Shown: piece by piece, positions 72 through 59,302 of the stretch
Layout: each line of letters starts with the position of its first letter
Position numbering within the stretch: the first letter of the stretch is position 1
From: Chitinophagaceae bacterium
Lineage (GTDB): Bacteria > Bacteroidota > Bacteroidia > Chitinophagales > Chitinophagaceae
Direction: 5' to 3'
Length of the DNA: 64,000 nt
Assembly (NCBI GenBank): GCA_947379895.1
Contig: CANCPA010000003.1
Location: forward strand, 1-64,000
Notes under the pieces: generated by a model
Seen by the model: only the letters and a program-made list of their open reading frames with translations
Database searches by the model: none
What the model was told of the DNA's origin: nothing
Made by a program: the position numbers and the translations under genes

Positions 72-704
72 AATATAATTTTTTAAGTTTGAATGAATAA
101 TGTATTTGTAATATACTAAAGTTAATTAGTGTTTAATTGAAGAAAATACATCTTCTTTTAGTCTTTTATAACTAAATACCAAGGTTTTATGATTCACTCA
201 TGAGATATCATTGTATACTCATGAGGTTTCACTGTATGTACATGAGGTGTCACTGTATATTCATGAGGTCTCACCGTATGTTCATGAGGTCTCATGAGCT
301 ATTCGTGGGGTCTTATCAGATATGCATAATAATTTACCATAAACTCATAAAACCTCATCAGACTGTCCGAAGACCTCCAAAATGAGTATCATCCTGCACT
401 ATGCAGACCCTTACAATGATGAACAGTAGCGATTTGTGAAAAGAAAGAAAAGATGTACGGCTTTAAAACAGGATTTGGAATTGAGTGATTACTGCCATTT
501 CCCACGGGAGGGGTTTTGACTTTTATAACCACTTTATTTATGAACATGTAGCAAAGAGATGTGCTTTATTTTTCTCCACCAAATAAACTTTGTAATAATT
601 GGCGTTTATTTGAAAATACTTTTGTATTTGTGATAAATTAGAAAAATCCCCTATAACACTAATCCACCAAATGGCAACCGTTACGAATATATTTTCTGTT
701 TTTT
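72..704. other. Intergenic region holding a 21-bp repeat array
   Basis: No convincing protein gene is present between the partial gene at the left edge and the stop of dacB. The notable content is the tandem array at 200-325. The segment 400-704 has short open stretches broken by stops in every frame and no clear terminator for dacB. Confidence 0.6.
200..325. repeat. 21-bp tandem repeat array 1 (six units, no indels)
   Basis: Six consecutive 21-bp units start at 200, 221, 242, 263, 284 and 305. The first five begin ATGAG; the core reads like ATGAGGTNTCACTGTAT. On the minus strand the repeats encode a heptapeptide series (MRPHEHT, VRPHEYT, VTPHVHT, VKPHEYT, MISHE) in a 33-residue ORF from ATG 295 to stop 194, and an in-frame TAG just upstream separates a further related heptad. 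On the plus strand they read MRYHCIL, MRFHCMY and so on. Inverted partial copies (ACCTCATC) continue to about 360. Whether it is translated is unknown. The exact 21-bp phasing despite sequence drift matches two other arrays in this window. Confidence 0.8.
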
Positions 705-23209: not shown

Positions 23210-23884
23210 TTAGTTCATTGAAATTGTAATTGGAGTAGCAACACTTAAAGCACTAACACCATTTGAGTTTCCTGAAAATGCGTACGCATTATATTCAGTA
23301 TTTACCTTTAAATTAGTAAATGTCTTTACTCTTTGTTGCGATACATCAAAAATTATTGTAGGATTTGTTCCTGCAGGCAAAATTAATACACCGTTTATGA
23401 ATGAGGTACCCTCAGGTAATAAATTAGCTTCAATTAATAGGATGCCATAATAGTTTGCACCTTCAACTTTATGGTATTCAATTTTTTGTACACCTGTAGC
23501 CATCCGTTGCGTTCTATAAAAATGTGCCACTTCAAGGGTTGTTATCCCACCTGTAATTACATTATTTTCGTGAAATCCAGAAAGTTGTGCCATTTCTGAA
23601 CTTAAATTTGGTAGCAAATTAAGATAACTGTGCAACGAGTCGAGCATTCCTAAAATTATATTCCTTGCTGTAATAAGCGGACCTTTCATTCCTTTACCAC
23701 CCGAAATATAATCTGAACTTGCTTTATTGTATTTTTCTACAGCCTCCAAAAAATTAACTTTCGTTACAGGGGGTAATAAAAAAATTAATACATACGCATA
23801 CAGGCCGTTTGAGATGCCAGTAAGAAACTTTGCAAATGTGGGCTTATCCATATAAGGATAGTCCTTTAAGACGGAAACTTTCAT
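23210..23884 (-). CDS. Orphan protein with helical N-terminus and Fn3-like C-terminus
   Basis: The 224-residue protein has no signal peptide. Residues 1-105 are predicted helical, with KVNFLEAVEKYNKASSDY and a glycine-containing GGKGMKGP loop. From about 125 the sequence is strand-rich and ends TFTNLKVNTEYNAYAFSGN, close to the last strands of a fibronectin type III fold. I recognise this layout from multi-copy orphan proteins in Bacteroidota with no known role. Upstream on the same strand is a 21-bp repeat array (24158-24410). A similar arrangement is repeated at 44561-45247. Confidence 0.7.
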   Translation of the reverse strand: MKVSVLKDYPYMDKPTFAKFLTGISNGLYAYVLIFLLPPVTKVNFLEAVEKYNKASSDYISGGKGMKGPLITARNIILGMLDSLHSYLNLLPNLSSEMAQLSGFHENNVITGGITTLEVAHFYRTQRMATGVQKIEYHKVEGANYYGILLIEANLLPEGTSFINGVLILPAGTNPTIIFDVSQQRVKTFTNLKVNTEYNAYAFSGNSNGVSALSVATPITISMN

Positions 23885-24157: not shown

Positions 24158-24410
24158 TTAGTGAAAAATAAAAAGAGTCATGTTTTGTTTAAACAGGGTA
24201 ATGTTTTCACTAAACATGACTCTGTTTTGAAATAAAACTTCAATGTTTTGTCAAAACATTACCGTTTTGTATGGTTTCAATGCCAAGGTAGGGGGATGAA
24301 TTGGAGTGTAACAGTGGAAAACAGTAATGTTTAGTGAAAACATTACCCTGTTTTGAAAAAAAACTTCATTGTTTGCGCAAAACATTACTCTTTTTATTTT
24401 TTTCATGATA
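24158..24410 (-). repeat. 21-bp tandem repeat array 2, decayed heptapeptide-coding frame
   Basis: Eleven units of exactly 21 bp run from 24180 to 24410, with a diverged further part to 24158. The best units match NTGTTTTGTCAAAACATTAC; units 5-6 (24264-24305) are most diverged, yet phase is kept. On the minus strand an ATG at 24406 opens a frame of heptads: VMFCANN, EVFFQNR, VMFSLNI, ... EVLFQNR, VMFSENI, TLFKQNM. It runs 82 codons to a stop at 24158-24160, interrupted once by TGA at 24251-24253. Units are partly palindromic (TGTTTT/AAAACA), so the plus strand reads similarly but with more stops. It looks like a decaying repeat-protein gene or a DNA repeat with helical phasing. Confidence 0.75.
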
Positions 24411-24599
24411 ATGTTTAAAATAGACTTGATAAAGCATATTAAAAATGAGTTTTTCTTTTATGTAAACATTAAGGTTTTCCATTGTAACAGGGTGATATTT
24501 AATAAAATAATGGTGAAATTGTCAAAAGATAATTTGGTATTAATGCTCTTGCTTCCATACTTTTTGCACTTTTTTTAAAGCGGCTATTAAAATATTATT

Positions 24600-44560: not shown

Positions 44561-45247
44561 TTATCCTTTTACAAGTATGGATACAATTTCACTCCAATTG
44601 CCAATCTGTACGTTATTATAGCGATAAATAGTCTTATAATTCCACACTTCACTTACTCCTTCAGCAGGCAAAGGTGAATTGTCGATATAATCGGGTTTAT
44701 TACTAACATCTAATTTTATAAATCCTTTTCCAATATCCTTCCATACCTCATAGCCCTCATAGTCACCTAGTGTACAATGCAATCGGGGATGCCCCACATT
44801 TGATTGTTTGGAAGAAAGGTTGGGCTTTCCGGCTATCAAATCAGTAATTACAGGTAATTTTATTAATCCCAAAGTAATTGCCATTGGCTCGGTCATCTTT
44901 CCTGTTGCCATACATAATTGAGTGATTTCTCTAAAAAAGCCAACCACGCCCTGATTGCAAATTGCAGGTATTATTGCAGGATAAACAGGTACTACAGGTA
45001 ATGCATTCATCAAAATCGATGGATTACCTGTACGTAGCAAATCCTTGTAGGACGTTAATTCTAATCCAAAATGTTTAAAATCATGCTGTTTTGTTACTAC
45101 AAATGAAAAGTACGTATGAACTAAACCCAAAGTTGTAATCTTTGCGGGAGGTAGGTTAAGTATAGCTTCATAGTCAGCATAATGTTTGAGAAATTTACCC
45201 ATTTGATCAACTAATCCATCGTCTGTGTTGTCAATTACTATTTCCAT
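44561..45247 (-). CDS. Orphan protein with Fn3-like C-terminus
   Basis: The 228-residue protein has no signal peptide. The N-terminal 130 residues are mostly helical with several Pro-rich turns. Residues 150-228 are strand-rich and close with EVWNYKTIYRYNNVQIGNWS, a pattern typical of the last strands of fibronectin type III-like folds in Bacteroidota orphan proteins. I cannot name the function. Like the gene at 23210, it has a 21-bp heptad repeat array just upstream on the same strand, and here also a MITE-like element further upstream. Confidence 0.7.
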   Translation of the reverse strand: MEIVIDNTDDGLVDQMGKFLKHYADYEAILNLPPAKITTLGLVHTYFSFVVTKQHDFKHFGLELTSYKDLLRTGNPSILMNALPVVPVYPAIIPAICNQGVVGFFREITQLCMATGKMTEPMAITLGLIKLPVITDLIAGKPNLSSKQSNVGHPRLHCTLGDYEGYEVWKDIGKGFIKLDVSNKPDYIDNSPLPAEGVSEVWNYKTIYRYNNVQIGNWSEIVSILVKG

Positions 45248-45346
45248 ATTTTTTGTTTTGTAAATCCATTATAGATTTTTATGATTAATAAACTATTTAA
45301 AATTCTTTTTATGCTTATTGTACATTATTCCGCATTAGATTCTATT

Positions 45347-45514
45347 TTTTCTTTCTCGAAAAGAACTTTTTCTAACGTAAAAAGGGCTTTTTCTTATATA
45401 GAAAGAGTTCTAGCTTGTTGGAAACAACCCTTTCTATGTTGAAAACAAAACATTCTAACATAGAAAAACTTGTTTCTTCATCAGATAAAGTTGTTTCTTC
45501 TGTGGAAAAACTTC
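45347..45514 (-). repeat. 21-bp tandem repeat array 3 (eight units, no indels)
   Basis: Eight units of exactly 21 bp start at 45347, 45368, 45389, 45410, 45431, 45452, 45473 and 45494. The shared core is TTTCT followed about 6 nt later by GAAAAA. On the minus strand they read as heptads SFSTEET, TLSDEET, SFSMLEC, FVFNIER, VVSNKLE, LFLYKKK, then an in-frame stop. On the plus strand the same units read FSFSKRT, FSNVKRA, FSYIERV with two stops. It lies 100 bp upstream of the orphan gene at 44561. Absence of indels while base identity has drifted is the striking point. Confidence 0.75.
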
Positions 45515-45809
45515 TGAATCAGACAAGATTACACGCAAAAACGTGTTGTAGAACTAACTACTGCCGTAAATAAAATGAAAATTGTAAGCTTTTAGTATGA
45601 TGAGGCTAAGCAGGAAAAGTCTTTCTTTTGATATACTTTTTCTTGAACTCTGCAAATTTACATGATTTGCATATACAAGCTAAATAAATTTTAAAAAGAA
45701 TGAATATATTTTAAATAATTTTTATCATAGAGTCATTTATGCTAAAAAATATATTTATTAAATAAGTAACGATGATTTTTTGTTGAAATAGTTTTTTGTA
45801 ATTAAATAA

Positions 45810-45953
45810 CAATGTCGTTAATTTAAGGGCACTAACCGAAATTTAGGGTGTCTGCCTGAGCCTGTCGAAGGCGCACAAAGAAGTAAATAACCATAATTTA
45901 GACCGGTTTCGACAAGCTCAACCTGACAGCTGTTTCTTAACTTAACGACATTG
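45810..45953. mobile_element. MITE-like foldback element with 10-bp target duplication
   Basis: The 144-bp element is bounded by 18-bp terminal inverted repeats: CAATGTCGTTAATTTAAG (45810-45827) and CTTAACTTAACGACATTG (45936-45953), with one mismatch. It is flanked by a perfect direct repeat AATTAAATAA at 45800-45809 and 45954-45963, the expected target-site duplication. A second nested inverted repeat (45849-45870 / 45907-45928) contains CTGAGCCTGTCGAA, like a dispersed intergenic repeat I know from many genomes. No transposase is encoded, so it would move only in trans. Ends and 10-bp duplication suggest an IS4-like parent; this is inference. Confidence 0.85.
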
Positions 45954-59194: not shown

Positions 59195-59302
59195 ATAGTT
59201 ATTAATGGTTAGTTGTTAGTGTTTAGTTATTAGTTGTAAGTGGAAGTCGTATTAAGTTTACTTAATAACTAACCACTAACTACTAATAACTAACAACTAA
59301 TG
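59195..59302. repeat. Inverted TTAGT-type repeat between the two sugar-nucleotide genes
   Basis: A run of TTAGTTG/TTAGTTA/TTAGTG words (59195-59235) faces an imperfect inverted copy (59261-59302) with about 80 percent pairing by eye. It overlaps the stop of the GalU-like gene. This kind of intergenic sequence is familiar in Bacteroidota; it may act as an mRNA hairpin or be a slippage product. Confidence 0.6.

Follow-up and report, generated by a model that had tools for sequence, protein, structure and literature searches.

The window analysed here is a stretch of 64,000 nucleotides of a Chitinophagaceae genome, in which a tandem array of 21-bp units lies a short distance upstream of an orphan gene on the same strand. 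A preliminary description of this DNA pointed to a second such pairing at 23.2-24.4 kb and suggested a functional or mobile association between arrays and orphan genes. This raises the question of whether arrays and genes belong together and, if so, what is maintained in the arrays and what might recognise it.

The window array and its neighbouring gene

The array and the gene that follows it are referred to below by these coordinates:

45344..45515, minus strand: 21-bp array, eight units in register (our own segmentation; 45347-45514 in the preliminary description), in the putative 5' leader of the gene at 44561..45247
44561..45247, minus strand: type-1 array-linked gene, 228 aa, with a helical N-terminus (9-125) and an FN3-like C-terminus (144-227)

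The eight indel-free units claimed at 45347-45514 are real: the array has 21-bp units (n = 8, zero indels), and its lag-21 plus lag-42 identity was 1.06 compared with 0.576 ± 0.053 for 20,000 shuffles (shuffle maximum 0.815; z 9.2), the next-best lag being 20 (0.79). The units are degenerate with the core TTTCT-N6-GAAAA, and the array ends about 96-100 bp before the minus-strand ATG (45247), in keeping with the distance of ~100 bp to a same-strand gene given earlier.

The units had also been read as E-containing heptads on the minus strand. This describes the first units (SFSTEET TLSDEET SFSMLEC FVFNIER VVSNKLE LFLYKKK PFLR*) but fails further on, since there is a stop in unit 7. That an array encodes, or formerly encoded, a seven-residue repeat peptide would fit 21 being seven codons, a slight depletion of sense-strand stops (z -2.8) and open frames slightly above expectation (z 2.1); however, no codon position concentrates variation (z -3.3, opposite to expectation; 49 arrays), the window array is interrupted by the stop and some arrays are built of 20-bp units, and we regard a coding origin as hardly credible. 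With the codon-phase signature absent across the 49 arrays and the stop depletion only mild, heptad-peptide coding was rejected, and the stop together with the missing signature marks the window array as non-coding.

The confidently predicted type-1 model (pLDDT 87) has a helical N-terminal part and a C-terminal FN3 domain, and FN3 structures match its C-terminal half (e.g. 4wtw, TM 0.58 by target), such that the Fn3-like label given to the gene stands. No sequence match to the type-1 protein was found in Pfam (including Pfam FN3), NCBIfam, PADLOC or the PDB, and Y1_Tnp, Nop, nuclease, Cas, replication-initiator, ParR and RHH domains were not detected in the family using Pfam, NCBIfam and PADLOC; the PADLOC defence models likewise gave no match. 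The median pI of the family is 6.2. FN3 domains usually bind proteins.

The source genome carries 10 full-length type-1 members (the window gene and nine paralogs) and one fragment, and a search of 12 further species in the genus found members in 10. The same search gave no member in other genera of the taxonomic family; one was found later (G047). Relatives were identified in Chitinophagaceae, Flavobacteriaceae, Methylococcaceae, Verrucomicrobia and Bacteroidales MAGs, while a Bacteroidota-wide draw of 297 genomes had five carriers including the source genome, and the viral contigs, phages and plasmids searched had none. Type 1 is a family of small genes of which little is known, with scattered members in several phyla.

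Arrays are found upstream of the genes

Family members were scored for the strongest period between 12 and 39 bp, with upstream and downstream regions scored identically, in a first set comprising 72 members with enough upstream sequence and 73 downstream regions, and in a second, later set of 22 and 25, respectively. In the first set the best upstream period was 21 bp in 65 of 72 members and 20 bp in two; downstream, 21 bp was best in 4 of 73 regions and none attained a score of 1.0 at this period. For the second set the corresponding numbers were 18/22 upstream and 3/25 downstream, two of these three being strong arrays. When both sets were pooled, 21 bp was the strongest upstream period in 83/94 members vs 7/98 downstream. 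In the source genome a strong 21-bp array was present within 650 bp upstream of 8 of the 10 full-length type-1 paralogs, and the same measure applied to source-genome ORFs of at least 200 aa gave 49/792 (6.2%; binomial p 9e-9).

The association extends to Flavobacteriaceae, Methylococcaceae, Verrucomicrobia, Bacteroidales MAGs and distant Bacteroidota, and at type-1 loci the median array end is 126 bp before the ATG. The association between arrays and orphan genes is strongly supported; it is far larger than the two co-occurrences from which it was proposed, and an enrichment test failed to refute it. The converse does not hold, since about 85% of the arrays have no such gene nearby.

The second pairing in the window consists of the following features:

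24161..24473, minus strand: array upstream of the type-2 gene, with 21-bp periodicity and large inverted repeats whose 44 nt arms are 86% complementary
23210..23884, minus strand: type-2 array-linked gene, 224 aa, with no detectable homology to type 1

The array at 23.2-24.4 kb is real as well, but the gene behind it comes from a family without detectable similarity to the first, also by profile comparison. In total three further families (types 2-4), with no detectable similarity, carry such arrays. The best upstream period was 20 or 21 bp in 13 of the 16 listed type-2 members, and the presence pattern of type 2 is nearly that of type 1. Types 3 and 4 behave alike upstream (assessed on one and two loci, respectively, where the upstream sequence was long enough), and as they were found through their arrays they do not constitute an independent test of the association. 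A single-sequence structure prediction for type 2 (pLDDT 34) was too poor for use, and the helical-FN3 layout is a prediction for type 1 only.

A putative transcribed leader

Two features lie upstream of the window array:

45653..45660, minus strand: putative Bacteroidota -7 element TAAATTTG, directed into the array from about 145 bp upstream
45613..45642, minus strand: conserved 8-bp leader hairpin between the putative promoter and the array; AGCCTCAT follows at 45600-45607

The Bacteroidota -7 promoter consensus is TAnnTTTG. Among 36 loci, 10 of the 12 sense-strand TAnnTTTG elements are positioned 124-179 bp upstream of the array start and antisense ones are scattered, while solitary arrays overall gave no promoter signal. 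In five loci including the window, 97.5% of the cells in the leader hairpin are paired and three pairs are altered on both sides. These data suggest a single transcript with promoter, leader hairpin, array, about 125 nt and start codon in this order, and transcription of the leader, which we infer from the sequence features, is partly supported. A k-mer search revealed no universal motif upstream of the arrays, and with Rfam there were only chance matches of the miRNA and lncRNA type below the gathering score, none of them credible.

Two additional observations concern the surroundings of the leaders. In one subfamily (L052, L061, L022 and L096) a conserved and apparently structured leader, ACGAGGTAAGGTTATACGGTGCCGATAGCC..., is present ~30-130 nt before the ATG, between array and gene; there was no Rfam match to it in L022 or L061. 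In the window, 18-bp imperfect terminal inverted repeats CAATGTCGTTAATTTAAG / CTTAACTTAACGACATTG surround GCCTGTCGAAGGCGC...GGTTTCGACAAGCTC at 45810-45953, forming a MITE-like element just 5' of the leader of the type-1 gene.

Period and symmetry are kept while the sequence is replaced

Unit sequences differ at nearly every locus and the unit consensus sequences are unrelated between loci, with no shared core. Within an array the units are near-identical, homogeneous and without spacer pattern. Some close pairs share units (L053/L055, L107/L108 and L042/L051). Sequence-specific coevolution of protein and array was considered and rejected, as protein identity and unit similarity are uncorrelated (Spearman -0.05).

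Four ortholog pairs from sister species (L018/L059, L024/L082, L020/L083 and L092/L093) have proteins that are 78-86% identical and have kept both flanks (71-94% identity), and between the kept flanks the 21-bp arrays are unrelated, that of L059 being weak given its score of only 0.86 at 21 bp. Moreover, a solitary array of the L018 unit class persists in the sister genome, where the ortholog bears another array. These comparisons of aligned loci strongly support that arrays have been turned over wholesale between sister species.

The arrays are more dyad-symmetric than column-permuted versions (mean z +2.1, p 1e-9), and their predicted folding is more stable, equally on both strands (z -3.0 and -3.1). 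Shuffling the unit order had a weak effect. Covariation within units (combined z 0.84) and the excess of G-U over A-C mismatches (162 vs 136) are not significant, which leaves folding of the array itself unproven. Arrays of 20-bp units were seen at L040 and L043 (type 1) and at L292 and L296 (type 2). By A-tract content the L040 and L043 arrays rank second and third of 53, the two type-2 arrays being outside this ranking; A-tract-rich 20-bp arrays would fit a constraint from DNA helical phasing, which is suggestive only. What is maintained in the arrays is position, 21-bp period and mirror symmetry, not sequence.

Solitary arrays and dispersal

Arrays also occur away from the genes, as in the window:

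132..403, no strand assigned: solitary 21-bp array with TCATGAGGTCTCACTGTATAT units and palindrome TGAGGTCTCA, without a family gene beside it

In 1.66 Mb of the source genome there are 61 places with 21-bp periodicity (score at least 1.05), i.e. ~37/Mb, an upper estimate for this element since some of the 61 are simple A/T-rich repeats of other kinds; about 10 of them adjoin a type 1-4 gene. Other periods are nearly absent from the 1.66 Mb, except 14 and multiples. That solitary arrays are gene remnants was rejected, there being no homology near them. One array class comprises one gene-linked and five solitary copies, at least two of which share about 250 bp of leader, and such leader-sharing dispersed copies together with wholesale replacement indicate that arrays probably move.

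Genomes with genes have 33-75 arrays/Mb on limited sampling, and G012, with one type-1 and no type-2 gene, has two arrays in 60 kb. In four genomes without genes there are no arrays in 224 kb (8.2 expected at the source-genome rate; P 3e-4), a small and partly phylogenetic sample of which the same-genus part has none in 104 kb (P 0.02).

We also noted other repeats and insertions. The commonest downstream period is 14 (20/73), and 14-bp repeats (2 x 7, TAGTTATTAGTGGT type) are present in the window at 59196-59234 and 59263-59301 as well as on the downstream side of several family members. In a solitary array copy (L232, about 575-760 in its oriented form) the leader motifs are separated by a MITE-like insert whose inverted ends are CCAGATTACGCAATAG / CTATTGCGTAATCTTGG, and a RAYT-like Y1_Tnp transposase gene is located 365 bp upstream of one array (L217 7334-8012; L022 15-693). 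RAYT as driver of the arrays was rejected, since Y1 counts fail to track arrays in nine genomes; a genome with seven Y1 matches had no array in the part sampled.

Comparison with known systems

In REP/RAYT systems, repeat abundance depends on the partner gene and orthologous genes may be accompanied by different repeats, referred to as 'orthoswitch' (PMC3686654). Palindromic repeats that adjoin a gene and also lie scattered over the genome are common to both, as are orthologs with switched repeats, here in four pairs with flanks kept. The number of repeats may likewise depend on the genes here, with 0 arrays in 224 kb lacking genes versus 33-75/Mb with them (a small, partly phylogenetic sample). 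Unlike REPs, however, the present repeats are tandem 21-bp arrays of free sequence on the 5' side of the gene, no GTAG/GTGG-type tetranucleotide lies beside the palindrome and the protein is a predicted helical-FN3 protein with no Y1/HUH domain. As the defining transposase and tetranucleotide are missing, the element is not a member of REP/RAYT, which it would resemble by analogy in its logic, without the transposase.

Iterons and plasmid centromere arrays likewise consist of short tandem units, about two helical turns long, that precede a gene and differ between loci, and iterons are sequence-specific. The present arrays share the unit length, the upstream position and the difference at each locus, but they occur many times per genome (10 full-length gene copies in one genome) with no plasmid match, there is no Rep, ParR or RHH domain, and array sequence is unlinked to protein divergence. 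Integron attC sites are sequence-variable, dyad-symmetric and structure-read, and are single sites downstream of a cassette gene; dyad symmetry with variable sequence is common to both, whereas here there is a tandem 21-bp array upstream.

TIGR arrays have alternating 8-12-nt repeats, 9-nt variable spacers and a Nop protein, are largely found in mobile elements, and keep their repeats within a locus but not from one locus to the next (PMC12045711). The likeness to TIGR-Tas is a repeat array beside one gene, with repeats variable between and constant within loci; in contrast, here there are no spacers and no Nop domain, and none was found in phages or plasmids. TIGR-Tas is excluded because spacers and Nop domain are absent. 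A CRISPR/TIGR-like RNA-guided system at large, in which the array is the guide source and the protein the effector, would agree with an array adjoining a gene, locus-specific unit sequences and probable transcription of the array. It is nevertheless very improbable: near-identical units within an array imply that there are no spacers, whereas in TIGR the unit is ~36 nt long with spacers of 9 nt (PMC12045711), Nop, nuclease and Cas domains were not detected, and none occurred in the phages, plasmids or viral contigs searched.

No description of the pairing of genes and array was found in the open-licence PMC literature; it is new relative to Pfam, NCBIfam, PADLOC, PDB, Rfam and the open-licence papers searched, and a description elsewhere is possible.

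What the arrays may do

With association, period, dyad symmetry, turnover and dispersal established, we favour, tentatively, that the gene products, alone or within a complex, recognise the phased-dyad structure. The array would be the repeat half of a two-part element whose partner is the gene for a small helical-FN3 protein, with about 8-14 dyad-symmetric 21-bp units placed, as we infer, in a transcribed 5' leader. The 21-bp spacing (two B-DNA turns) and the mirror symmetry would be kept and the unit sequence left free, with units homogenised within the array and swapped wholesale over time. The protein or its complex would read structure and not sequence, and this recognition would maintain and copy arrays, leaving solitary copies in the genome. 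Counted against it are the median pI of 6.2 and the usual protein-binding role of FN3, the about 85% of arrays without a nearby family gene, array absence from gene-less genomes being partly phylogenetic with a same-genus part of 104 kb, the non-significant covariation within units and G-U excess, and the missing promoter signal at solitary arrays overall. Since several protein families with no relation to each other have arrays, the acting agent may instead be a factor common to them.

Recognition is favoured over two other explanations. The phased array could act in cis only, as a structural 5' UTR or curved-DNA module tuning the adjacent gene, in which case the protein never touches the array and solitary arrays are left-over copies. 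Such a leader is supported by the location of arrays in front of the genes (they end at a median of 126 bp from the ATG), by promoter elements directed into the array from 124-179 bp upstream of it, by the covarying leader hairpin and by units that are sequence-free yet period-locked; it explains neither the solitary arrays, which number ~37/Mb and have no gene remnants near them, nor the absence of arrays where genes are absent, and we consider it rather unlikely as the full account. Less probable still are selfish, satellite-like repeats whose origin and spread depend on an unrelated process, such as slippage, gene conversion or a mobilising enzyme, and which accumulate at permissive sites including these leaders. 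Abundant solitary intergenic arrays, concerted units, rapid replacement and dispersed copies with a common leader are as expected from such repeats, but they would not be expected to be linked on the upstream side to four particular families across phyla, and the Y1 transposase number does not track the arrays.

Taken more broadly, recognition of phased dyads would possibly define a geometry-based element class in several phyla, where helical-FN3 proteins generate, maintain or use 21-bp dyad arrays that can be rebuilt from a new unit with the gene unchanged; this wider claim is put forward with reserve. Our data add a recurrent gene and array architecture, found in several phyla and in multiple copies per genome. 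The replacement of arrays between sister species raises the questions of how 21-bp arrays can be built anew at the same site and what it is that reads their geometry, and the pairs with the same gene, the same flanks and a different array make this directly testable.
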